DNA of 64,000 nt from Chloroflexota bacterium (GTDB lineage Bacteria > Chloroflexota > Anaerolineae > UBA4142 > SHND01). Under the pieces are notes generated by a model that had not been told where the DNA came from, searched no databases, and saw only the letters and a program-made list of their open reading frames with translations. The position numbers and the translations under genes are program-made. Positions 8,184 through 20,794 of the stretch are shown piece after piece. Every line of letters starts with the position of its first letter. The stretch's first letter is position 1. The stretch lies in NCBI GenBank assembly GCA_016209205.1, contig JACQWQ010000131.1:1-64000 (forward strand), given 5' to 3'.

Positions 8184-11100
8184 TCAGCCCGCCGCTCCGA
8201 GTTTGGTGGCGAGCAAGCGCAGGGCGCTCACGAGCGCGTAATCTTGCTTGTCGGCTTGCTTGGCGAGTTCTTCTAACTGCGTGAGGGCTTGATTCGTGTC
8301 GCCGCTTGAAAGCGCGGTCAAGATCAAATCGAGCCGCTGCCACAACGTTTGATCCGACGCGGGCGCGACCGGTTGCAGCTGTCTGATGCTTTGCGCCGCT
8401 TGCGTCAATTGGTCCTTGGCGATTAGCAAGAGCGCCACATTGCGGCGCGCCGAATAATCGTCGGATTTCAGCTCTAGCACCTTTACAAATTCGGGCAGCG
8501 CGAAATCAATTTGTCCGCGTGCGAGCCATTGATTGGCAACCGCGCGGTGCGCTTCGGGATCGTTGGGCGCGGCTTGGACCGCGTCGAGCGCCTCGCGCAA
8601 TTGCACGAGCGTGAAACGAAAATCTTCATAGCGTTTGCGCGTTGTAGAGTCCGCTTGCGGCATGTTTGCCAGCGCGCCGTCAATCGCCGCAAGCGCTTCG
8701 GGGATGCGTCCCGCCCGCGAATAATAATTCGCGAGCGTCGTATAGAGTTCGAGCGACGGAGTTGCTTTGACTGCTGCTTGAAGCATTTGCTCAAAAGCCG
8801 CGCCTTCCTTGGCGGCAAGCGCTTCATCGCCTGCCTGCGCGAGCGCATTGACGGCAATCGCCATCCCTTCGCCGATAAACACATCGCCGCACTGCGGCGC
8901 GCGTCGAAGCGTCTCTAACGCGTCGCCCGTGCGCGCGCGCCAATTGTCTTGCGCTTGCGCGCGCATGCCGTACGTCAGACAAAACGTCGGATCAATTTGC
9001 AGCGCGCGCGCGATTTGCGCCAGCGCCTGTTGATGCGCTTGGGCTGCCCCGGTCACGTCTTGATTTTCTTGCAGCAGCGCTTCGTATTCCAGCAGCGCCT
9101 GCGCGTGTTGGTCGTACAAGTGCGCGGTATTGGGGCTGAGCCGCGTGGCTTGGTCGAAATACGCGGACGCTTGTTTGTACGCGTCGCGCTTTGCCGCAAA
9201 ACTTTCGTCCAACGCGCCGCGCGCTTGCGCGAGGCGGGCGAGATTTGCCGAATGATCGGTGTTGTACGGATTGATGCTGCGGGCGACATTCAACGCTTCC
9301 ACCGCGCGCTGCAAAACTTGGGCGCGCGCCGCCGCATCCGCTTGAATTTTTGCCGCGTCCAGATACGCGCGTCCGAGAAAGAGGTAATAGAAATCTTGCT
9401 GCGGTTGGAGCGCGAGCGCGCGTTGATAGAATTCAATCGCCTTGTCCGCATTCTCAGGAGGCAGCGCGGCGGCTTGTTTGTAGAGAATGTCGGCGCGCAC
9501 GGGGTCCAGATTCGTCGCGGTGATTAAAACTCCGGCGATGAGCACGAGCACGGGCATGACGACCCAATTCGTGGTACGGCGCACCCAGAGGTGCGGCATA
9601 GGTTCGTCAAAGAGCATCGTCACCGCGCAGACGGCGACCATGAGCAACACGAACGCGGTAAAGATGACGACCGACACGAGCAGCGCGTCCAGAATCCCCG
9701 AACGCGAAGTGGCAATCAAGAGCACGTGATAAAACGCCAGCCCGGAAAAAATGGCAAAGGCAAGCACGGCAAACAGGAGCGCGGCAACGCCCCAATCGCG
9801 CGCCGATAGATGGAAGGTGCGACCCCATTCTGCAATGCCGACACCCATACCAACCAGCAGCGTCGTAATAAACAACCACAACAGCGCATACGACGTCATG
9901 CCGCCTATGGTCGTCGCCTTGACCGTCAACGCGCTAATCACAATGTCCAAACCGCTGATACTGTCGGTTCCGGCAGCCGCGAGATTGTTGGTACTGATAT
10001 AGTCAAACCCCATGACGGCAAGAACCAAGCCCACTAAAAATGCGAACGTGATGAGCGGTGAAGTTGAAACCCGCCGCGCCCGCGCCGGATTGGAACGTGC
10101 AGCCGGTTTCTGGACGGGGGTTTGGGTGTTGCGTTTGCGCGCGGGGGGGGTGAGGGGGGGGGGCGCAGATACGCTCTCTTTGCTCTCGGCAGGTTCCGCG
10201 TGCTCTGGCATCGGAATGCCGCGTGCGCCCAACGCGACAAAGACAGCGGCAAAGAACCAGAAATAGGTCCGCGTCGAAACAATCGCAATGCCAAAATGAA
10301 TTTCGATAAAGTGCGCGACAAATAATGCGGCCAGCGCGATGAGCCAGAGACTGGAGGTTGGAAGTTGGAAGTTGGAAGGTAGAGACGTTTCGGTGAAACG
10401 TCTGGAGGTTGTAGATTGGACGTCGGACGGTAGAGACCTTCCGTTGGAACGTCTGCTGCGCAGCGCAAAGGCGACGAGATACGCAAAGAGACCCAGAATC
10501 ATGCCGCCCGGCAAGGCGACGCCGATAAATTCCCAACCGAGCACGAAACCAAAAAGCAATGCCAGCAGCGCGCCGCCGCCGAACCACAGCGCGATAAAAA
10601 TGTTGCGCGCACGCGGCGACGGAATCAAGCCCAGCCATTTCAGCGCCAGATACAAAATGACGAGGAACAACACATTTTCCGCGACGAATCCGAACAGCCC
10701 GGTTGTAACGAGCGCGTCGAACGTTTCGTTGTGCGAGCGATCCGGCGTGGCGTTCCGCGATTCGAGCGTGCCGAGTTCGGGCGGATAAAATTTGTTGTAC
10801 GCGACGTACATGGATTCGGGACCGTAACCGACGAGCGGACGCAGGGGATTGAAAAGATCCTCGCCCGTTGTCGGCGCCCACAACGGTTCGTGCGGCAGGA
10901 CCAATTTCAACGCGCCCTGCCAAATCAGCACGCGCACGCGGCCCGTGCCGCCTTCCAATTCAAACACGCGGCCCAAACGCCCGACGTACGGCAGCACGCG
11001 CAAGGGCGCAAGCGGTGACCCGGGAATGTTAATGAGCGCGAGCAAAATCATCACCAGCGCGGCGGCGCTGGCCGCGCCCAGCGCCAATTTGCGCGCCCCG

Positions 11101-12164
11101 CGCACGAGCGCAAACAGCACGCCAAACGTGAACATGCCGCCGAGGATCCCGAATAGCGGACCACGGCTTTGGGAAAACAACAACGCGACACATTGCACCG
11201 CGAGCAGCGCGGCGTACAACGCAATCAAGAGAAAATTCGCGGCGCGTTGTTTCAAAACCAAAGCCGCGCCCCACCACAGCGTGACGACGACCAGCGTGCC
11301 CAGGAGCGCAAGATTGAACGCGCTCGAAGCGAGTTGCAATTGTTCCGGGGTGAGCGTGCCGCTGTAATTGGCTTCGATGATTTCTTTGGCGCCCAGGTCA
11401 AAGCTCAACGCCCATACGGCGGCAATGAGGATCAAGGTCGCAATGGCGGCAGGATACAACCAGACGCGGGCGCGCCCCGCAATAGCCGTTTTCGCGCGTT
11501 CTGCAGTTTGGATCAAACGCGCCAGTGCGAGGGGAATCGCCAGAACCAAGAACGCGCCGATGAAAATCGAGTTGCCCACCGTCGAAGCGACGCGCGTGGT
11601 TACGTCGCCGACCCAGGGCAGCGCGTCGAGAAAATAATGTTGGACGATGCCGTAGAGGGCAGCCGGAAAACTGGCGACGAGCGCGATGCTGACGGCGCGC
11701 TCCACATCGGCGCGCGTCTCGATCAAACTGGCGGCGAGGAAAAAGATAATGATGTAGGAAGAAAAAGTGTACAACCCTTGCAGGCGTTGATACGAACCGA
11801 AAAAAGAAACGGTCGGCGATACGGAAAGCAAGGTGCTGATGAGATACGCCAGCCAGATGAGCAAGGCGGGAATTGTAAGCGGATTACGCTGCGAGGCGGC
11901 GCGCGCCCATTCCTTGACACGTTCTATTACCGAGTGCGACGCAGCAGCATCGCGCGTACCCGAGCGCCCGCGCCACCGTTCCGCGCGCAGGATGAGCCAC
12001 GCCGCGCCCATTGCCAGCGCGAGCGTGCGGAGCAGTGAGATTTTGTCGGGTTCAAAGACGCGGCTCGAATAGATGTTGAAATAAAGCGGGGTGACAATCA
12101 AGGCGACGAGCCAACCGGCTTGAATGAATTTCTCACAAAAGAGGGCGAGGCGAGATGGTGTCAT
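8184..12164 (-). CDS. O-antigen ligase/polymerase-like protein with large TPR domain
   Basis: The 1326-residue product has a long multi-spanning N-terminal part (about 15 or more hydrophobic segments). Its Wzy_C/O-antigen-ligase motif spans VGYGPESMYVAYNKF to DRSHNETFDALVTTGLFGF (near residues 455-515). A linker rich in Ser, Pro and Arg follows, then more membrane segments. A C-terminal stretch of about 450 residues consists of TPR-like helical pairs (for example AIEFYQRALALQPQQDFYYLFLGRAYL). It would polymerise or transfer polyprenyl-linked glycan outside the membrane. ATG 12164 is used; the frame is open to 12230. Two oddities lie inside the gene: G8/G10 tracts at 10143-10163 and heptad repeat DNA at 10354-10378. 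Confidence 0.88.
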   Translation of the reverse strand: MTPSRLALFCEKFIQAGWLVALIVTPLYFNIYSSRVFEPDKISLLRTLALAMGAAWLILRAERWRGRSGTRDAAASHSVIERVKEWARAASQRNPLTIPALLIWLAYLISTLLSVSPTVSFFGSYQRLQGLYTFSSYIIIFFLAASLIETRADVERAVSIALVASFPAALYGIVQHYFLDALPWVGDVTTRVASTVGNSIFIGAFLVLAIPLALARLIQTAERAKTAIAGRARVWLYPAAIATLILIAAVWALSFDLGAKEIIEANYSGTLTPEQLQLASSAFNLALLGTLVVVTLWWGAALVLKQRAANFLLIALYAALLAVQCVALLFSQSRGPLFGILGGMFTFGVLFALVRGARKLALGAASAAALVMILLALINIPGSPLAPLRVLPYVGRLGRVFELEGGTGRVRVLIWQGALKLVLPHEPLWAPTTGEDLFNPLRPLVGYGPESMYVAYNKFYPPELGTLESRNATPDRSHNETFDALVTTGLFGFVAENVLFLVILYLALKWLGLIPSPRARNIFIALWFGGGALLALLFGFVLGWEFIGVALPGGMILGLFAYLVAFALRSRRSNGRSLPSDVQSTTSRRFTETSLPSNFQLPTSSLWLIALAALFVAHFIEIHFGIAIVSTRTYFWFFAAVFVALGARGIPMPEHAEPAESKESVSAPPPLTPPARKRNTQTPVQKPAARSNPARARRVSTSPLITFAFLVGLVLAVMGFDYISTNNLAAAGTDSISGLDIVISALTVKATTIGGMTSYALLWLFITTLLVGMGVGIAEWGRTFHLSARDWGVAALLFAVLAFAIFSGLAFYHVLLIATSRSGILDALLVSVVIFTAFVLLMVAVCAVTMLFDEPMPHLWVRRTTNWVVMPVLVLIAGVLITATNLDPVRADILYKQAAALPPENADKAIEFYQRALALQPQQDFYYLFLGRAYLDAAKIQADAAARAQVLQRAVEALNVARSINPYNTDHSANLARLAQARGALDESFAAKRDAYKQASAYFDQATRLSPNTAHLYDQHAQALLEYEALLQENQDVTGAAQAHQQALAQIARALQIDPTFCLTYGMRAQAQDNWRARTGDALETLRRAPQCGDVFIGEGMAIAVNALAQAGDEALAAKEGAAFEQMLQAAVKATPSLELYTTLANYYSRAGRIPEALAAIDGALANMPQADSTTRKRYEDFRFTLVQLREALDAVQAAPNDPEAHRAVANQWLARGQIDFALPEFVKVLELKSDDYSARRNVALLLIAKDQLTQAAQSIRQLQPVAPASDQTLWQRLDLILTALSSGDTNQALTQLEELAKQADKQDYALVSALRLLATKLGAAG
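10143..10163. repeat. G8 and G10 homopolymer tracts inside the ligase gene
   Basis: The plus strand carries eight G (10143-10150), TGA, then ten G (10154-10163). In the gene they encode Pro runs of the linker between the ligase domain and later membrane segments. A one-base slip here would end the protein before its TPR domain. Confidence 0.85.
10354..10378. repeat. Heptad repeat embedded in coding sequence
   Basis: About three TTGGAAG units lie inside the ligase gene and are translated in frame as SNFQLPTSS on the minus strand. The adjoining 80 bp (to about 10460) carry related GACGTTTC and ACGTCTGG units. They encode a low-complexity Ser/Thr linker that looks like former spacer DNA. Confidence 0.7.
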
Positions 12165-12269
12165 AGGGATTTTTTCATCGGGGCGAACGCAAAGGATTTT
12201 ACAAGGGGTCTCTGAAAATCTCAAATTCAACCGGCGTTTACTTACAGCTCGAATCGCGCGGCATTAAGA

Positions 12270-12302
12270 ATTCTTTACGCATTCTTTGCCAATTCTTGAA
12301 AC
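12270..12302 (+). promoter_or_regulatory. Three 11-bp direct repeats, candidate Pho-box-like operator
   Basis: ATTCTTTACGC, ATTCTTTGCCA and ATTCTTGAAAC follow one another with exact 11-bp spacing, the helical spacing used by PhoB/PhoP-type winged-helix regulators. A possible -10 (TAGAAT) lies at 12333-12338, ahead of the gene at 12418. A Pho function is inferred only from spacing and from the neighbouring pst operon. Confidence 0.4.
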
Positions 12303-12417: not shown

Positions 12418-12888
12418 ATGAAACGGATTTTGTTCATTGATCTTCGCAACACGGTACGAAGCCAGATGGCAGAAGCGTGGTTCAATCAATTTGCCGACGT
12501 TTGGGCAAAAGCTTATTCGTGCGGCACGATGCCCGCGGCACTGATAGATCCGGTGGCGGCGCGGGTGATGAGCGAAGCGGGTTTGGATATGCGCGCCGCG
12601 ACGCCAAAACCGATCAACAACGCCTTGTTGGCGCAAGCGGACATTGTAGTGATGATGGGCAAGGATGTGCATCCGGGCGCGTTCACGCCCGATTACATTT
12701 GGGATTTTCAAGACCCGACCGGTAAAGACGTGATTCATTATCGCATTCAACGCGACGCGATTCGCCAGCAAGTACAAGAGTTGATCGTCGAACTCCAGCG
12801 CCTGCGTTTCGACTCGACACGTTCCGATTGGATTCACCGGGCATTGCTGCAGCGCGAATTGATGATGCAGCAAATGCTTTGCTCGTGA
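12418..12888 (+). CDS. LMW protein-tyrosine-phosphatase/ArsC-fold protein lacking the catalytic Cys
   Basis: The 156-residue protein aligns by eye with low-molecular-weight phosphatases and thioredoxin-coupled arsenate reductases. It opens MKRILFIDLRNTVRSQMAEAWFNQF and later has KPINNALLAQADIVVMMG, equivalent to the usual TLCD region. In active family members the P-loop reads C-x5-R-S (as in LFLCVHNSARS at 18158). Here the Cys position is Asp while the Arg-Ser is retained, so classical phosphatase or arsenate-reductase chemistry should be absent. A good SD (GAGGAG, eight bases upstream) supports ATG 12418. It lies directly upstream of pstS on the same strand, so a phosphate-linked binding or sensing role is possible but inferred. 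Confidence 0.8.
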   Translation: MKRILFIDLRNTVRSQMAEAWFNQFADVWAKAYSCGTMPAALIDPVAARVMSEAGLDMRAATPKPINNALLAQADIVVMMGKDVHPGAFTPDYIWDFQDPTGKDVIHYRIQRDAIRQQVQELIVELQRLRFDSTRSDWIHRALLQRELMMQQMLCS

Positions 12889-13187
12889 CTCGACGTTTTA
12901 CTAGACCCGTCTAATTTTCCACAGACTGAACCGATTTCATCTTTTTTTTCTCCTTTTTGCAGAGTGGGGTACGCGAGCTGTGGCGTGTGCCCCGCTCGCT
13001 TGTGTGGAGGATGCTTTTATTAAGAACGTTTAGCTTGAACTTAACAAGGGCTTTGTTGACTCTTGAAGAAATGTTAAGACGACTGCGCGATAAAGGAGGT
13101 CAATAGACGCCGGTTTCACGACGAATTGAGGCAGCAATTTTATACTAGAGTCTTCGGACGCCAGATTCTATCAGAGGAGAAGAAACA
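12889..13187 (+). promoter_or_regulatory. pstS upstream region
   Basis: This 299-bp gap has no gene. It contains an imperfect palindrome TTAACAA/TTGTTGA near 13041-13059, paired CTTAAC (13040) and GTTAAG (13073) half-sites, two CTTGAA motifs (13034, 13062), and a -10-like TATACT at 13141-13146. A strong SD (AGAGGAGA) precedes the pstS ATG. No good -35 is seen, as expected for an activator-dependent Pho promoter, but operator identity is unproven. Confidence 0.4.
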
Positions 13188-14396
13188 ATGTTTTCCAACA
13201 AGACCGCAAGCGCACTCGTAACCATTGTTGCGCTCGCCCTAATGATTGTCGCATGTGGTACACCGGCGGCGCAAACTGCCGCACCCGTTGTTCAAACGGT
13301 TGTAGTCAAGGAAACGGCGGCACCGGTTGTGCAAACCGCAGTCGTCGTTCAAACCGCCGTACCGCAGATTGTGACCACAACGCCCGGTCCGCAAGGTCCT
13401 GCCGCCGGTTCGCTGGCGATCAACGGCGCGGGTGCAACGTTCCCCTTTCCGCTTTATTCGCGCTGGTTCTATGATTATGCGTTTGTTGACCCATCGGTCA
13501 AGTTCAATTACCAGTCGATCGGCTCCGGCGGCGGCATCGCGCAAATCACTGCCGAAACGGTTGACTTTGGTGCGAGCGATGCGATTTTGAACAATGATCA
13601 ATATTCAAAAGCTCCGGGCATCCAGATGTTCCCGACCGTTGCGGGTGCTGTGGTGCCGGCGTATAATCTCTTGGGCGATGATGGTAAACCCATTACGGCG
13701 ATATTGAACCTCCCGAGCGCGGCCATCGCCGACATTTTTCTCGCCAAAATTACAAAGTGGAATGCCCCGGTCTTGCAGCAGGCAAACCCCGAGGTAAAAC
13801 TTCCGAACAAGGATATTGTCGTCGTCCATCGCTCGGATGGTTCGGGCACCACGTACATCTTTACAGATTATCTTTCCAAAATCAGCCCGGAATGGAAAGA
13901 CAAAGTCGGCAATGCAACTTCGGTCAAATGGCCCACCGGGCTTGGCGGCAAGGGCAATGAGGGCGTCTCAGGGCTGGTCGCGCAAAATGACGGCGCCATT
14001 GGTTACGTCGAACTCGCGTATGCCGTCACCAACAAACTACCGTACGCCGTTCCACAAAATAAGGCAGGGAAATACATTGATCCGGGCAAAGGACCGGAAG
14101 GTGTGCAAAGCGCGATGAACGACTTTAGCACGGACCTCGGCGATAAACTGGCGGTCTCGATTGTGAACGCGCCCGGCGAGGGTTCCTATCCAATTGCAGG
14201 TTACACCTATCTGCTGCTCTACATGGATCAACAGGATTGTCTCAAGGCAAGGAAACTCGTCACATTCATGAACTGGGCGCTGACGGATGGGACTAAAGAT
14301 GCCACCGATCTCCAGTATGTGCCGCTTCCAGACAATGTGAAAAAACTGGTCTTGGACAAAGCAGCGAAAATAAGCTGCCAGGGCAAGCCGCTGTAG
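13188..14396 (+). CDS. pstS: Phosphate ABC transporter substrate-binding lipoprotein PstS
   Basis: The 402-residue protein has a lipoprotein signal peptide with lipobox IVACG (Cys 23), a Val/Gln/Thr-rich linker to about residue 75, then the PstS fold. Landmarks are INGAGATFPFPLYSRW, YQSIGSGGGIAQI, DFGASDA, the phosphate-binding HRSDGSGTTYIFTDYL, and late GYTYLLLY. It would capture phosphate outside the membrane and hand it to PstCA. It is the first gene of a complete pst operon; a hairpin follows the stop, consistent with higher expression of pstS than of the downstream genes. Confidence 0.97.
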   Translation: MFSNKTASALVTIVALALMIVACGTPAAQTAAPVVQTVVVKETAAPVVQTAVVVQTAVPQIVTTTPGPQGPAAGSLAINGAGATFPFPLYSRWFYDYAFVDPSVKFNYQSIGSGGGIAQITAETVDFGASDAILNNDQYSKAPGIQMFPTVAGAVVPAYNLLGDDGKPITAILNLPSAAIADIFLAKITKWNAPVLQQANPEVKLPNKDIVVVHRSDGSGTTYIFTDYLSKISPEWKDKVGNATSVKWPTGLGGKGNEGVSGLVAQNDGAIGYVELAYAVTNKLPYAVPQNKAGKYIDPGKGPEGVQSAMNDFSTDLGDKLAVSIVNAPGEGSYPIAGYTYLLLYMDQQDCLKARKLVTFMNWALTDGTKDATDLQYVPLPDNVKKLVLDKAAKISCQGKPL

Positions 14397-14460: not shown

Positions 14461-14503
14461 AATCTTGTTTCAAGAGAGTGCAAGCGACAATCAGAGAAAC
14501 CAC

Positions 14504-15490
14504 ATGTCTGTTATTACTGCGATCAAATTAAAAAAGCGCACCTCGCGCTGGAGTGAACTGGTTCGCCGCCTTGAACATGGGGATGTTATTTTTCGGCTTT
14601 TGACCCTTGCTGCCGGAATGTTGGTGATTCTCGCCGCGATTGGGATTGGATTTGAATTGTGGCAAAACTCGGCGCGGCCGCGCGCCGAGTTTGGTTTTGA
14701 TTTCTTGGTTGGCACGAATTGGGACCCGGTTATCGAGGATTTTGGCGCATTGCCTTTTCTATACGGCACGCTGCAAACGTCGTTGTTCTCACTCTTGATC
14801 GCGGTACCAATCGGATTGGGGATTGCTATTTTTTTAACGGAGCTTGCGCCAGACTGGCTTCTCCAACCTGTTGGCTTTGTGGTCGAATTATTAGCCGCCG
14901 TCCCCAGTGTGATCTTTGGCTTGTGGGGTTTGTTTGTTTTCGTTCCGGTTGTAGTCAAACCGTTCGCACAATTTTTGAATGGCACGCTGGGCTGGCTTCC
15001 CATTTTTGAGGGTCCGGTCTTTGGCCCCAGTCGCCTCGCCGCAACGCTCATTCTCTCGATTATGGTTTTGCCGACACTCGTTGCCATCAGCCGCGATGTA
15101 TTTCTAGCAATTCCCCCATCGCAACGCGAAGGTGCGTTGGGACTCGGCGCAACGCGGTGGGAAATGATTACGCAGAATTTAATCCCGTATGGCTTGTCCG
15201 GGATTTTGGGCGCGGTGATTCTGGCGCTCGGACGCGCCATGGGTGAAACCATTGCGGTCACGATGGTTATTGGCAATAATCTTGATCTATCGGCTTCGCT
15301 GCTTCATCCGGGCTATACGATGGCGAGTTTGATAGCAAATGAGTTTACCGAGGCGACGACCGACATGTATCGCGAAGCGTTGATCTTGATCGGCTTTGTG
15401 TTGTTCGGATTGACGCTGCTCGTCAATATCATTGCGCGCCTCTTGGTCTGGCGCGTCGCGCGTCGAATTCCGACCGAATCGCGCGCGTGA
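14504..15490 (+). CDS. pstC: Phosphate ABC transporter permease PstC
   Basis: The 328-residue permease has six membrane segments. It carries the PstC hallmarks LLAAVPSVIFGLWGLFVF and the EAA loop ALGLGATRWEMITQNLIPYGLSG, followed by GRAMGETIAVTMVIGN. ATG 14504 is preferred; the frame extends to a TTG at 14465 inside the post-hairpin spacer. It forms the membrane channel with PstA. Confidence 0.96.
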   Translation: MSVITAIKLKKRTSRWSELVRRLEHGDVIFRLLTLAAGMLVILAAIGIGFELWQNSARPRAEFGFDFLVGTNWDPVIEDFGALPFLYGTLQTSLFSLLIAVPIGLGIAIFLTELAPDWLLQPVGFVVELLAAVPSVIFGLWGLFVFVPVVVKPFAQFLNGTLGWLPIFEGPVFGPSRLAATLILSIMVLPTLVAISRDVFLAIPPSQREGALGLGATRWEMITQNLIPYGLSGILGAVILALGRAMGETIAVTMVIGNNLDLSASLLHPGYTMASLIANEFTEATTDMYREALILIGFVLFGLTLLVNIIARLLVWRVARRIPTESRA

Positions 15491-15509
15491 TGGAACGGAA
15501 ATCATTGGG

Positions 15510-16400
15510 ATGCAATCATCTCTCTTGTCTGTTACTCAAAATGACCAGCGCTTGAATTATCGTCGGCGTCAAGCCGTCAATCAAGTCATGCTGGGTTTGT
15601 GCGGCGTCGCCGCACTGATTGCGATTTTGCCGCTCGCCTGGATTCTGCTTTATGTGGTTCAGCGCGGCTACGGGTCGTTGAACCTCGACTTTTTTACGCA
15701 GCTGCCTACGCCGGTTGGAGTCGCGGGCGGCGGTGTTTTTAACGCAATCGTCGGCTCTGCGATGGTCGTCGGGCTGGCGTGTTTGATGGCAATTCCGGTG
15801 AGTCTCATCGCGGCGTTCTATGTGTATGAGCGTCCAAACACTCTATTAGGTACGCTGATTCGGTTCAGCACTGATGTCTTGTCCGGTGTCCCGTCTATCA
15901 TCATGGGTATCTTTGCCTACACTGTGATTGTCTTGACACAGGGGCATTTCTCGGCGCTTTCGGGCGGTTTTGCGCTTGCGATCATCATGACGCCAATTGC
16001 ATTGCGCACCACAGAAGAGATGCTGAAACTTGTGCCCAAAACACTGCGCGAAGGTTCCTTGGCGCTCGGCGCGGCGGATTGGCGCACTTTGTTGCAGGTG
16101 ATGCTCCCGGCGGCGATCAGCGGCGTCATCACGGGAATTATGTTGGGCGTGGCGCGCGTGGCGGGCGAAGCCGCGCCGATGCTTTTCACTGCCTTTGGGA
16201 ATCCCTTTTTTAGCGCGGCGCTTGATCAACCCATTGCGACGTTGCCGCATCAAGTCTATGTTTATGCCATCTCGCCATACAAAGATTGGCAAGACAAAGC
16301 ATGGGCAACGGCATTGGTGCTTATTGCGTTGGTGCTCTCGCTTGAAGTTGTGGCGCGTGGAGTAACATCTTGGCAACAACGGAAATTGCGCGGCCGGTGA
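15510..16400 (+). CDS. pstA: Phosphate ABC transporter permease PstA
   Basis: The 296-residue permease has six membrane segments, DVLSGVPSIIMGIFAY, the EAA loop EGSLALGAADWRTLLQVMLP, and the PstA-typical GVARVAGEAAPMLFTAFGN. ATG 15510 lies 19 bp after pstC; the frame opens earlier, but the upstream residues overlap pstC in another frame and are not PstA-like. It pairs with PstC as the inner-membrane channel. Confidence 0.96.
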   Translation: MQSSLLSVTQNDQRLNYRRRQAVNQVMLGLCGVAALIAILPLAWILLYVVQRGYGSLNLDFFTQLPTPVGVAGGGVFNAIVGSAMVVGLACLMAIPVSLIAAFYVYERPNTLLGTLIRFSTDVLSGVPSIIMGIFAYTVIVLTQGHFSALSGGFALAIIMTPIALRTTEEMLKLVPKTLREGSLALGAADWRTLLQVMLPAAISGVITGIMLGVARVAGEAAPMLFTAFGNPFFSAALDQPIATLPHQVYVYAISPYKDWQDKAWATALVLIALVLSLEVVARGVTSWQQRKLRGR

Positions 16401-16428
16401 GCTTGGCAATTGGTGAGGAAAGGATGTG

Positions 16429-17295
16429 ATGACGCAGAATCAAATCAAAGTTCCAGAAGCGCCCAGCATTGGCGCCATGCTCAAGACGTCCATAGTGGGG
16501 CTCCAAGCGAACAATGATCAAGTCAACTCGTTCAAGGTGCAGGTCAAGAATTTGAATTTTTACTATGGCTCCTTTCGCGCGCTGGCAGACATCAGTTTAG
16601 GTTTTCCGGAAAACCAAATCACAGCGATTATTGGACCATCCGGCTGTGGCAAATCCACGCTGATACGCACTCTGAATCGCATGAGCGATCTCGTGCCCCG
16701 CGCGCGCGTGGAGGGTCAAGTCTTGCTGGATAACGAAAACATCAATACTTCTGATGTGGATGTCGTGAATATCCGTCGCCGTGTCGGCATGGTGTTTCAG
16801 CGCCCGAATCCTTTTCCCAAGTCCATTTATGATAATGTGACGTATGGACCGCGCTTGCTGGGAGTGAGGAATAAAAAAGTCTTGGACGAGATTGTCGAGA
16901 AATCTTTGCGCGGCGCGGCGCTGTGGGATGAAGTCAAAGATAAATTGCACGAGTCCGGGCTTGCGCTTTCCGGCGGGCAACAGCAGCGTTTGTGTATTGC
17001 ACGCATGGTGGCGGTGGAACCCGAAGTGGTCTTGATGGACGAACCGTGTTCCGCACTTGATCCGGTGGCGACGATCAAAATCGAAGATTTGATGCGCACA
17101 CTGCGCAACAATTACACGATTGTCATTGTGACACACAACATGCAGCAAGCGGCGCGCGTTTCCGATTACACGGCAATGATGATGATGCGTCCCGACCGCG
17201 CCGGAGAAATGATCGAGTTCAATCAAACGCGCACAATCTTTACCAATCCGCATGACAAGTGCACCGAAGATTATGTGACCGGGCGTTTTGGGTAA
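16429..17295 (+). CDS. pstB: Phosphate ABC transporter ATPase PstB
   Basis: The 288-residue ATPase has Walker [19 protein letters not shown]-loop [18 protein letters not shown], the ABC signature [13 protein letters not shown] and Walker [14 protein letters not shown], all in the PstB-specific form. The N-terminal 35 residues are an extra low-similarity leader. SD GAGGAAAGG is well placed for ATG 16429 (a GTG at 16426 is in frame). It energises phosphate import and, with PhoU, signals to the PhoR-like kinase. Confidence 0.97.
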
Positions 17296-17326
17296 GGACA
17301 GGTCACGCAAAAAATTCGAGGAAACT

Positions 17327-17995
17327 ATGCCACGCAATTCGTTCGACATTTCAATTTCAGAGCTCAAGGTCCAATTGCTCGATTACGGCGCGCGGGTCAA
17401 GCAAGTGATCGGCGAAGGGATGGACGCGCTCAAGACGCGTGACCGCGCGCTGGCTGAGGCGATTATCCAGAATGACGCGCATTTGAATGAAACGCGTTAC
17501 CAGCTCGAAGACCAGTGCTATACGCTGTTGGCGACGCAATCGCCGATGGCAGGCGACTTGCGCGAAATTCTTTCGATGCTGTTGATTGCGATTGAATTGG
17601 AGCGCATCGCCGATCATGCCAAAAATCTTGCCGAGATCACGATTCACATGGGCGACGAACCGCTGCTGAAACCGTTGATTGACTTGCCGCGCATGGTAGA
17701 GGTTTCACAGCACATGCTGGGCCGCGCGCTCGAAGCGTTCGCGCAAAACGACGCGCTGGAAGCCAAAGCCGTCGCGGCAATGGACGACGAAATGGATAAT
17801 TTGTACAAACAGATTTTCCGCGAATTGATGACGTACATTGTCGAAGACCCACGCACGGTCACGCGGGCAATGAACCTGCTCTTTGCCGCGCACAATGTCG
17901 AACGGATCGGCGATTGCATCACCAACATTGCCGAGCGCGTGGTCTATGCGCGCACCGGACGATTGGAAGAGTTAAATGTTCAGCGTGAGGTGTAA
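17327..17995 (+). CDS. phoU: Phosphate signalling protein PhoU
   Basis: The 222-residue protein shows the two repeated three-helix PhoU units with the E/DxxxD-type metal-binding motifs (IAIELERIADHAKNLAE and AAHNVERIGDCITNIAE). SD GAGGAAAC supports ATG 17327. PhoU connects PstB activity to the PhoR histidine kinase and represses the Pho response when phosphate is plentiful. It ends the pst operon; an octad array begins six bases after the stop. Confidence 0.96.
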   Translation: MPRNSFDISISELKVQLLDYGARVKQVIGEGMDALKTRDRALAEAIIQNDAHLNETRYQLEDQCYTLLATQSPMAGDLREILSMLLIAIELERIADHAKNLAEITIHMGDEPLLKPLIDLPRMVEVSQHMLGRALEAFAQNDALEAKAVAAMDDEMDNLYKQIFRELMTYIVEDPRTVTRAMNLLFAAHNVERIGDCITNIAERVVYARTGRLEELNVQREV

Positions 17996-18000
17996 GCGAA

Positions 18001-18157
18001 GATGGAGAGCGGGAGAGCGGGAGAGCGGGAGAGCGCGAGAGCGCGAGAGATGGAGAGCGCGAGAGATGGAGAGCGCGAGAGAAGCACTCTATCGCTCTAT
18101 CACTCCATCACTCTATCACTCTGTCGCTCCATCACTCTATCGCTGCATCACCCCATT
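18001..18157. repeat. Octad repeat array between phoU and arsC-like gene
   Basis: Units close to GAGAGCGG/GAGAGCGC (18003-18085) switch to CTCTATCR/CTCCATCA (18088-18150). The two halves are roughly reverse complements (GAGAG versus CTCTATC), so a transcript could fold back on itself. The array fills the gap from the phoU stop to the next ATG. Confidence 0.88.
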
Positions 18158-18598
18158 ATGAAGTATCGTGTCCTCTTTCTCTGCGTACACAACTCGGCGC
18201 GTTCGCAAATTGCCGAAGGATTGCTGCGCCATCTCGCGGGCGAGCGTTTTGAAGTGTACAGCGCGGGCAGTGAACCTTCGCAAGTGAATCCTTTCGCCGT
18301 GCGCGTGCTGCAAGACGAAGGCATTGATCCGAGCGGGCAATATCCGAAAAGCGTTCAAGAATTTGTAAACCAACCGTTCGATTATGTGATTACTTTGTGC
18401 GACGATGAGGTATGTCCGGTGTTTCCGGGCGCGGTGACGCGCTTGCATTGGGGCTTGCCAGATCCGTCGGCGGCACAGGGGGATAGTTACGAACGACTGC
18501 AAGCGTTTCGCGGGACGGTAGAGGCGCTCAAACCAAAACTGGCAGAATTCGTGCGCACGGTACCGCAAGCGTCAGCGTGGGGAGGCATGTCATTCTGA
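18158..18598 (+). CDS. Low-molecular-weight phosphatase/arsenate reductase family protein (intact P-loop)
   Basis: The 146-residue protein opens MKYRVLFLCVHNSARSQIAEG. The catalytic C-x5-R loop is complete (Cys 9 to Arg 15). The second redox region FDYVITLCDDEVCPVF supplies two further Cys, as in thioredoxin-coupled ArsC, and the general-acid DPS/A block (GLPDPSAAQG) follows. It may reduce arsenate or dephosphorylate a protein. Arsenate enters through Pst systems, so its place after phoU makes sense. ATG 18158 directly follows the octad array, whose in-frame codons upstream are not protein-like. Confidence 0.9.
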   Translation: MKYRVLFLCVHNSARSQIAEGLLRHLAGERFEVYSAGSEPSQVNPFAVRVLQDEGIDPSGQYPKSVQEFVNQPFDYVITLCDDEVCPVFPGAVTRLHWGLPDPSAAQGDSYERLQAFRGTVEALKPKLAEFVRTVPQASAWGGMSF

Positions 18599-18801
18599 GA
18601 TACTCATCACGCGCGGGCATGATGTTTGATGCCAGAAACTTTTCCTTCCGCGAATAATTGCGCGAACTCTGCGCGACGAATCACACTAATTTTTATTCGT
18701 GTGATTCGTGTAATTCGTGGACAGCCGGAAGTTTCTGTGCAGCGGAGCGAAGACTGACAACCCGGGACTTGGACCAACCCTACCGGCAATGTGAGTGTGA
18801 T
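18599..18801. repeat. Intergenic region with inverted repeat and ATTCGTGTR units
   Basis: The gap contains a stem CGAATCACAC/GTGTGATTCG (18676-18710), three 9-bp units close to ATTCGTGTG (18693-18720), and flanking inverted arms CAGAAACTT / AAGTTTCTG. It resembles a small palindromic element. No gene is seen, and a promoter for the regulator gene may be here. Confidence 0.5.
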
Positions 18802-19545
18802 ATGTTGAATGGGATCAAAACGATGGCGGCTATGAATAAATCAAGTGCAGCCGAAAAGGCGTTGCGTGACGGAACGACCAAATTATTGTTGGTGGAAGAC
18901 GACCAGACGTTGTTAGAGACGTTGACCTTTAATCTGGCGCGCGAAGGGTACGATGTGATTCGGGCGGGCGACGGCATGACGGCGCTCGATCTCGCGCGCC
19001 AACACGCTCCCGATCTGATCGTTCTGGATGTCATGCTGCCTGGGCTCGATGGTTTGACCGTGTGCCGCACACTGCGCCGCGAAACCGAAGCGCCGATCGT
19101 GCTTTTGACCGCGCGCAGTAGTGAAGTGGATCGCATCGTCGGACTCGACACGGGCGCGGATGATTACATTGTCAAACCGTTTTCGTTGGGCGAATTGTTG
19201 GCGCGCTTGCGCGCGGTGATGCGGCGCGGGCAACACCGCGCGGAAACAAAATTGCAGTCCGGTGATTTGCTTTTGGATTTGGTCGGACACCGCGCGCTGC
19301 GCGGCAGCGAAAATCTCAACTTGCCCCCGAAAGAATTTGATTTGCTTGCCGAATTGATTCGGCACAAAGGCGCGGTGCTCACGCGCGATTTATTGTTGCA
19401 GCGCGTGTGGGGATTCGATTTCGCCGGTGATTCGCGGACGGTGGACGTGCACATTCGCTGGTTGCGCGAAAAAATCGAAGACGATCCGGCGAATCCGAGG
19501 CGCATTGAAACGGTGCGCGGGTTGGGATACCGGTTTTCAGGATAG
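18802..19545 (+). CDS. PhoB/OmpR-family response regulator
   Basis: The 247-residue regulator has a receiver domain (acidic pair in LLVEDDQ, phospho-acceptor in LIVLDVMLPGLDG, Thr in VLLTARSS, Lys in DDYIVKPF). A winged-helix DNA-binding domain follows (NLPPKEFDLLAELIRHKG, DVHIRWLREKIEDDP, ETVRGLGYRFSG). Its position after pst-phoU and before a PAS-containing kinase makes it the likely PhoB. The start is uncertain: ATG 18802, 18823 and 18832 are all in frame and SD sequences are weak. The stop lies just before a heptad array. Confidence 0.93.
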   Translation: MLNGIKTMAAMNKSSAAEKALRDGTTKLLLVEDDQTLLETLTFNLAREGYDVIRAGDGMTALDLARQHAPDLIVLDVMLPGLDGLTVCRTLRRETEAPIVLLTARSSEVDRIVGLDTGADDYIVKPFSLGELLARLRAVMRRGQHRAETKLQSGDLLLDLVGHRALRGSENLNLPPKEFDLLAELIRHKGAVLTRDLLLQRVWGFDFAGDSRTVDVHIRWLREKIEDDPANPRRIETVRGLGYRFSG

Positions 19546-19549
19546 CGCA

Positions 19550-19625
19550 ACGAGATTAGAGACTAGAGACTGGGGCTTGCAGGCAATCCAATTTCTAATT
19601 TCTAATTTCCAATTTCCAATTTTGG
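19550..19625. repeat. Heptad array running into the histidine-kinase N-terminus
   Basis: GAGATTA, GAGACTA and GAGACTG units are followed by AATTTCT/AATTTCC heptads (19591-19620). This DNA lies between the regulator stop and the first membrane helix of the kinase, and part of it appears to be translated. Confidence 0.75.
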
Positions 19626-20794
19626 ATTTTCTTTTCGGGGCGGCGGTTGTTGTCATCGTCGCCTTGCTTTATTTGACGTGGCGGTTGACACGCCGCACGA
19701 ACGCGCAAGAGCTTGAACACGCGGAACTTGAAGCGCAGCTGGCGGCGTTGGAGCAGGAACGCGCGAGTTCGCAAGAGCTATGGTCCGGCTTGACGCGCGC
19801 TACGTCCGATGGAATTGTGCGCGTGGATGAAAACGGCAGCATCGTCTACGTGAACGACGCCGCGCGCGCGCTGCTGGGCATTCGCGATCACACAAAAGGG
19901 TCGCTCCGCCATCTGGCTTGGGGTTATGATTTTGATTCGCTGGTGCGTCAAGTGTTGAGTGAGGGCAGCGGGCGCCCGAGTCAGACCATCGTCAAGGATG
20001 AGCGTACCTTCCAGGTCCGCGCGGTGGCGGTGGGAGACGCCGACAAACGCGGCGTGTTGCTGGCGCTGACCGAAGTAACCGAATTGCAGCGTCTCGGACG
20101 CGCGCGCCGTGAGTTCGTCGCCAACATTTCACACGAGCTCCGTACGCCGGTCACGTCGCTGCAACTCCTCGCCGAAACGATGAATCAAGAGGTGCTGAAC
20201 GACAGGGCGCTGCTGAACGATTTGCTCGACAAGATGCGCGCGCAGGTTGATTTATTGAAACAATTGACGGACGAATTGATGGACCTCGCGCTCATCGAAT
20301 CGGGCCAAGCGCCCATCAAATTGGTCGAGGTTTTCGCGGGCGACCTCGTGATGGATGCACTCTTGCCGCTGCGCCCCCAAGCCGAACGCAAACAGATCAA
20401 ACTCGACGCGCAAATTCCGCCCGACATCCAAGTACTTGCCGACCCGCAGGCGATTCGCAAGGTCATCAGCAACCTCACGCACAACGCGCTCAAGTTCACG
20501 CCCGAAGGCGGAAGCGTTACGTTGCACGCGACATGGTGCAACGACGGCAGCGATGTTGAATTTGCGATTCAAGATACCGGCGTCGGAATTCCCGAAAAAG
20601 ATTTGTCGCGCATCTTTGAGCGCTTTTACAAAGTGGATCGCGCGCGCACGCGCACGCAAGGCGAACTGCGCGGGACCGGTCTCGGACTTGCGATTGCAAA
20701 ACACATTGTCGAAGCGCACGGCGGCAAAATTTGGGCGGAGAGTGTTCAAGGCAAAGGTTCGACGTTCTACTTTACGCTACCGTCGGGCGAGTAA
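19577..20794 (+). CDS. PhoR-like sensor histidine kinase
   Basis: The kinase (about 405 residues) has one N-terminal membrane helix (FGAAVVVIVALLYLTWRL), a short coiled linker, a PAS domain (TSDGIVRVDENGSIVYVNDAAR), the HisKA H-box FVANISHELRTPVTS, and HATPase boxes NLTHNALKF, DTGVGIPEKD and GTGLGLAIAKHIV. It would phosphorylate the adjacent regulator under phosphate starvation. There is no ATG near the start: TTG 19577 or TTG 19622 is possible, and the sequence between is heptad repeat DNA. The stop codon overlaps a 9-bp target duplication of the element at 20802. Confidence 0.9.
   Translation: MQAIQFLISNFQFPILDFLFGAAVVVIVALLYLTWRLTRRTNAQELEHAELEAQLAALEQERASSQELWSGLTRATSDGIVRVDENGSIVYVNDAARALLGIRDHTKGSLRHLAWGYDFDSLVRQVLSEGSGRPSQTIVKDERTFQVRAVAVGDADKRGVLLALTEVTELQRLGRARREFVANISHELRTPVTSLQLLAETMNQEVLNDRALLNDLLDKMRAQVDLLKQLTDELMDLALIESGQAPIKLVEVFAGDLVMDALLPLRPQAERKQIKLDAQIPPDIQVLADPQAIRKVISNLTHNALKFTPEGGSVTLHATWCNDGSDVEFAIQDTGVGIPEKDLSRIFERFYKVDRARTRTQGELRGTGLGLAIAKHIVEAHGGKIWAESVQGKGSTFYFTLPSGE

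Follow-up and report, generated by a model that had tools for sequence, protein, structure and literature searches.

An Asp-for-Cys clade of the ArsC fold beside pstS in one order of Chloroflexota: probable pseudoenzymes behind a Pho-box-like element

The window analysed here, a stretch of 64,000 nucleotides from a Chloroflexota bacterium, carries directly upstream of pstS a gene for an LMW-PTP/ArsC-fold protein in which the nucleophilic Cys of the P-loop is replaced with Asp (Table 1). The replacement is conserved in a single clade of orthologues under purifying selection. Since the gene (hereafter the Asp gene) is kept beside pst genes and has an apparently common phosphate-starvation element, its product is probably a working non-enzyme and not the remnant of a broken gene. 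With moderate confidence, we regard this Asp protein as a pseudoenzyme that derives from thiol-dependent ArsC, is controlled by the Pho system, fills its P-loop by itself and serves in the binding of a partner.

Table 1. Positions of the Asp gene and of associated features in the window, and of zinc-ribbon genes in other genomes (L numbers)
Feature	Position	Strand	Remarks
Asp-type ArsC/LMW-PTP-fold gene (probable pseudoenzyme)	12418..12888	+	156 aa; protein begins MKRILFIDLRNTVRSQMAEAWFNQ
P-loop codons, degenerate (D-L-R-N-T-V-R-S, residues 8-15)	12439..12462	+	Asp8 for nucleophilic Cys; ArsC alignment
Pho-box-like element 1	12263..12295	+	three 11-bp direct repeats: ATTAAGAATTC TTTACGCATTC TTTGCCAATTC
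Pho-box-like element 2	13019..13051	+	upstream of pstS; 18.1 bits
pstS	13188..14396	+	operon position, orthologues beside pstCAB; inspection and conserved synteny
pstC, pstA, pstB	14465..17295	+	inspection and conserved synteny
phoU	17288..17995	+	PF01895, E 3.3e-44
Cys-type ArsC-like protein	18158..18598	+	CVHNSARS, LCDDEVCP; different ArsC subfamily
PhoB-like response regulator	18658..19545	+	PF00072 and PF00486; likely reader of the Pho-box-like elements
PhoR-like histidine kinase	19427..20794	+	PAS, HisKA, HATPase
Zinc-ribbon genes	L061:9555-9794, L062:3172-3429, L063:11700-11951, L064:9309-9566, L059:9944-10201, L060:701-958		

The Asp protein belongs to the LMW-PTP/ArsC superfamily by both profile and fold. 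It matches PF01451 (LMWPc) with an E-value of 1.4e-15 and 58.1 bits (cut-off 23.2), and its predicted structure (pLDDT 83, pTM 0.76) superimposes on pI258 ArsC (1rxe) with a Z score of 18.6 and an rmsd of 1.7 over 124 residues at 31% identity. A C-terminal helical tail, modelled at lower confidence, extends beyond the end of ArsC. In the P-loop (ILFIDLRNTVRSQMAE), Asp8, encoded by GAT, stands at the expected start of Cys-x5-Arg and is followed by Arg14-Ser15. Thus, the original prediction of an Asp in place of the catalytic Cys next to pstS was borne out by the reading frame, the profile match and the alignment; its further statement, that the P-loop is otherwise recognisable with Arg-Ser retained, holds for most members of the clade but fails for two, which have lost the Arg (genome G015) or the Ser (G009).

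In ArsC, the P-loop Cys attacks arsenate and two further Cys finish the reaction, three free Cys being essential (PMC6193951). None of these three is present in the Asp proteins: the catalytic Cys, which also defines an active LMW-PTP, is Asp in 12 of 12 copies, and both resolving Cys are missing from 11 of 11 full-length members. The curated NCBIfam cut-offs for ArsC are likewise not reached (60.2 vs 215, 56.9 vs 157.6 and 48.3 vs 174.3 bits). Because all three Cys are lacking, we infer from sequence that the protein is neither an ArsC nor a Cys-based phosphatase, and the corresponding chemistry would be absent. The HAD-like motif DxDx(T/V) is not found either, the sequence being D-x-R-N-(A/T) in all 11 full-length members. 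Relocation of the catalytic Cys to an invariant SCGT (C35) was considered and rejected; Synechocystis ArsC aligns with SCG there and also has R at the +2 position, yet it keeps the P-loop Cys, so that neither feature proves a new active site in the Asp protein. Loss of an essential catalytic residue throughout the clade, with the fold retained under purifying selection, is what characterizes a pseudoenzyme.

The Asp gene was searched for in 99 relatives first and then in 20 genomes of one Chloroflexota order, nine of which, from two families, contain it in 12 copies. Public contigs that carry it among the relatives are CALMZO010000349.1, JAKOPZ010000010.1 and JACRMI010000075.1, and full-length orthologues are 41-80% identical to the window protein. 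The original prediction was to be checked by the conservation of Asp in orthologues, with Cys in them pointing to a local mutation or a sequencing error. All 12 copies in the nine genomes have Asp and none has Cys, and an error or local mutation is ruled out by the independent assemblies of these genomes. The codon is GAT or GAC among orthologues, so the invariance is one of the protein and not mere identity of DNA. Asp8 and Asn11 are unchanged across the 12 copies. Within the 11 full-length members D8, R10, N11, E19, S34, C35, G36, T37, P39, A40, W95, D99, R109 and others are invariant, while Arg14 is Cys in G015 (NAICS) and Ser15 is Gly in G009 (RG); the twelfth, partial copy, in G006, has Gln for Arg10. 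All 11 full-length reading frames are open. Among the three nearest orthologues, dN/dS (NG86) is 0.13, 0.14 and 0.16, which, with synonymous changes near saturation, is to be read as well under 1; the gene is under purifying selection. The G006 genome has two near-identical Asp genes and a third, partial one in tandem (L060:1-927, L059:9975-10634), and its near-copies agree at 93% in the domain and at only 30% over the last 23 residues.

In a maximum-likelihood tree of 83 domains, the Asp proteins form one clade (97/89) among ArsC proteins, with a single change of state from Cys to Asp. Thus, the Asp arose once. When genomes from the class (396) and the phylum (400) were scanned with a profile of the 11 full-length proteins, scores fell from 217 bits for the lowest-ranking full-length Asp member to 142 bits for the best Cys protein, which is from another family of the class. 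No close Cys-bearing relative was found within the order by this profile. The remaining inspected matches all have Cys, so no Asp member outside the order is among the inspected matches from these class and phylum genomes. A query-based scan across 84,980 species, with patterns suited only to close relatives, found none either, and a plasmid search returned only relatives below 60% identity, which carry the name ArsC wherever annotation exists.

The gene order after the Asp gene in the window is pstS-pstC-pstA-pstB-phoU, followed by the genes for the Cys-type ArsC-like, PhoB-like and PhoR-like proteins. In eight loci the Asp gene precedes pstS, either immediately or separated from it by one or two genes (G000, G002 (copy C373), G005, G008, G009, G013, G015 and G019). 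The intervening genes are an ArsR-family gene and an ArsP_1 permease gene in G005 (L057:9180-10478; PF01022, E 1.5e-9, and PF03773, E 3.2e-66) and one other ORF in G008. The copies of G006 lie at contig ends. In the second copy of G002 (C349), the upstream neighbours of the window are kept and an unrelated ORF takes the place of pstS downstream, which is against our preferred explanation. A close type of pstS is present in 13 of the 20 genomes of the order, and the Asp gene occurs in nine of these 13 and in none of the seven without it (Fisher p 0.005, relatedness ignored). On its other side in the window, the Asp gene adjoins a divergent gene of 1348 aa (8184-12230), O-antigen-ligase-like by inspection, with a multi-TM first part and TPR-like repeats at the end; it is conserved in this place in G002 and G005.

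A family member with an intact Cys had been noted across the pst operon, and a second LMWPc protein (FLCVHNSARSQ) is indeed encoded after phoU. Its translation probably begins at 18158, whereas the listed ORF opens at 18002; the frame between (18002-18157) reads as a low-complexity repeat (GERESARDGERERS...LYHSITLSL) and is probably non-coding rather than an N-terminal extension. The same prediction took the two proteins for a pair of enzyme and sensor, which is only partly supported. In the tree, the Cys copies linked to pst group away from the Asp proteins in a clade of their own (100/100) and represent another ArsC subfamily, and each gene occurs without the other: the pst locus of G008 contains the Asp gene although this genome lacks such a Cys copy, and in G010 only the Cys copy is present. 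An obligate pair is thereby ruled out. Local duplication of the Cys-type neighbour as the origin of the Asp gene was also rejected, the two being of different subfamilies on the tree.

A conserved stretch of 33 bp with three 11-bp direct repeats precedes the Asp gene, or the zinc-ribbon gene upstream of it in some genomes; in the window its distance from the Asp gene is about 120-155 bp. Three 11-bp direct repeats are the architecture of the PhoB box. Sites were initially chosen by eye, and a model was then built from five sites of family f2, that is, from other genomes only. When both strands of the 64-kb window were scored with this model, the site before the Asp gene came first (29.1 bits) and the one before pstS second; in 100 simulated 64-kb sequences, the best score had a mean of 13.4 and a maximum of 18.7, and reached 18 in 3. 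Genomes without the Asp gene likewise have the element before pstS (G011, 37.6 bits; G012, 32.9; G010, 29.4), and in G005 it stands before both the Asp gene (28.6 bits) and pstS (26.3 bits). Since the elements are found before both genes, and before pstS even where the Asp gene is absent, the Asp gene lies behind a pst-type element. In having the 11-bp repeats upstream in common with pstS, it looks like a member of the Pho regulon. This suggests co-expression with pst, as the original prediction had supposed, and the Asp gene may be under Pho control, with the PhoB-like protein as the putative binder of the elements. The order-wide element of pst operons is about TTTAAGAAnnC TTAACnCAAnn TTTRC, with further sites at L163:7513 and L165:7783, and it could help in mapping the group's Pho regulon; no papers on Pho boxes in Chloroflexi were found in the open-access literature.

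Five genomes from family f2 have a small gene that runs 4 to ~20 bases into the start of the Asp gene; its product, of about 80-86 aa, has one predicted N-terminal membrane stretch and then the four Cys of a zinc ribbon (CPxC...CxxC). Within the order, this gene was found only in these five genomes with the Asp gene, and its product matches no Pfam family above cut-off. It is missing from the window's own family, which is against our preferred explanation.

How such a protein may work can be outlined as follows. The Asp gene has become attached to the pst operon, downstream of a Pho-box-like element, and its product should therefore be made together with PstS when phosphate is scarce. The carboxylate of Asp8 would occupy the oxyanion position, on Arg14 and the P-loop amides, and its pairing with Arg14 would hold the P-loop folded and 'loaded' without ligand. 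The protein would then bind a partner in phosphate or arsenate homeostasis, candidate contact points being the long C-terminal helix and the membrane-anchored zinc-ribbon protein of some genomes. Reduced ArsC is stable only with a bound oxyanion (PMC6193951), and in the PRL-CNNM complex an Asp carboxylate of the partner contacts the P-loop Arg of the phosphatase (PMC5427921); together these suggest that a carboxylate can fill such a site. The plug would not be uniform, since one member has Cys for Arg14 and the partial copy has Gln for Arg10. More tentatively, a permanently 'loaded' pseudoenzyme derived from ArsC could be a dedicated component of the response to phosphate starvation in this order, partly with a membrane zinc-ribbon partner. 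If true, phosphate/arsenate uptake would have a regulator of a new kind.

The P-loop might instead bind phosphate or arsenate without turnover and signal its cytosolic concentration to PhoU, PhoR or the Pst transporter. Such a sensor would agree with the Pho and Pst context, with the arsR and ArsP-type permease genes that separate the Asp gene from pstS in G005, and with the invariance of Asn11, Glu19, Ser34 and Asp99 and the presence of Arg14 and of Ser15 each in 10 of 11 full-length members. On the other hand, Asp8 puts a negative charge at the anion site, and the gene is missing from four genomes with the same type of pstS. Oxyanion binding is also doubtful because one member lacks the P-loop Arg; another lacks Ser15, though Asp8 and Asn11 never vary. 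We therefore hold a sensor to be rather unlikely, and judge a self-filled P-loop with partner binding, to which we give roughly even chances, the likelier reading.

The invariance of Asp8 at the end of the Rossmann-like strand 1, and of the general-acid Asp99 in all members, could also be explained if Asp8 were a nucleophile forming an acyl-phosphate, as in HAD phosphatases and response regulators. This is very unlikely, for two positions further on there is Arg10 and not the second acidic residue for Mg2+ (cf. the HAD DxD), and the P-loop Arg varies; we know of no Asp nucleophile in the LMW-PTP/ArsC fold. Equally improbable is that a dead arsenate reductase is being lost. Patchy presence (9 of 20 genomes), some P-loop drift and the tandem copies of G006, one truncated at a contig end, would fit decay, but the dN/dS values, the open frames of all full-length copies and the conservation in both families of the Pho-box-like element and of the place before pstS would not. 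Only slightly better placed, and still unlikely, is a regulator that competes with the pst-linked Cys-type ArsC for a redox partner or client, Asp8 imitating the phospho- or arseno-cysteine intermediate of an active ArsC: in most of these genomes phoU/phoB are linked with the Cys-type copy as well, but the Asp protein of G008 has no such counterpart, and the two proteins belong to different subfamilies.

Pseudophosphatases are known mainly from eukaryotes, and no earlier report of a clade with a replaced Cys in the bacterial ArsC/LMW-PTP fold was found in open-access papers. A conserved pseudophosphatase of this fold, encoded with pstS downstream of a Pho-box-like element, would add a bacterial example whose physiological context is clear, namely phosphate starvation and the avoidance of arsenate, and it raises the question of whether Asp8 replaces the oxyanion or senses it. 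For annotation, it is a warning that these proteins match arsenate-reductase models despite having none of the three redox Cys.

Among known systems, thiol-dependent ArsC (the type of pI258, B. subtilis, Synechocystis and C. glutamicum ArsC2) resembles the Asp protein in fold over the first 125 residues and in the Asn, Glu, Ser and Arg-Ser of the P-loop region and the general-acid Asp. The Asp protein differs in having Asp for the nucleophilic Cys and no resolving Cys pair, in scoring far below the NCBIfam cut-offs, and in ~25 additional C-terminal residues, predicted to be helical. The top-scoring Cys-bearing relatives, ArsC homologues with MGCG...CPA from other Chloroflexota (G037, G219 and G531, at 142, 138 and 131 bits), have, unlike the Asp protein, both the catalytic Cys and the resolving pair. 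A protein of a mitoribosomal small-subunit assembly intermediate (9hny_FW, 7pua_FW) also matched the LMW-PTP fold (Z 16.8) and is perhaps another non-enzymatic use of it. PRL phosphatases on CNNM transporters offer an analogy only: a phosphatase site filled by a carboxylate serves partner binding and not catalysis, but PRLs keep their Cys and the carboxylate is supplied by the partner. The D2 domains of human RPTPs may be a further Cys-to-Asp case but were set aside as a precedent. Exchange of the nucleophile is known in eukaryotic pseudophosphatases, from Cys to Asp in tensin 1 and from Cys to Gly in STYX (PMC9464862). As in these, a phosphatase fold is retained in the Asp protein with its nucleophile exchanged, whereas tensin 1 and STYX are eukaryotic, have the unrelated PTP fold and stand outside any phosphate-uptake operon.
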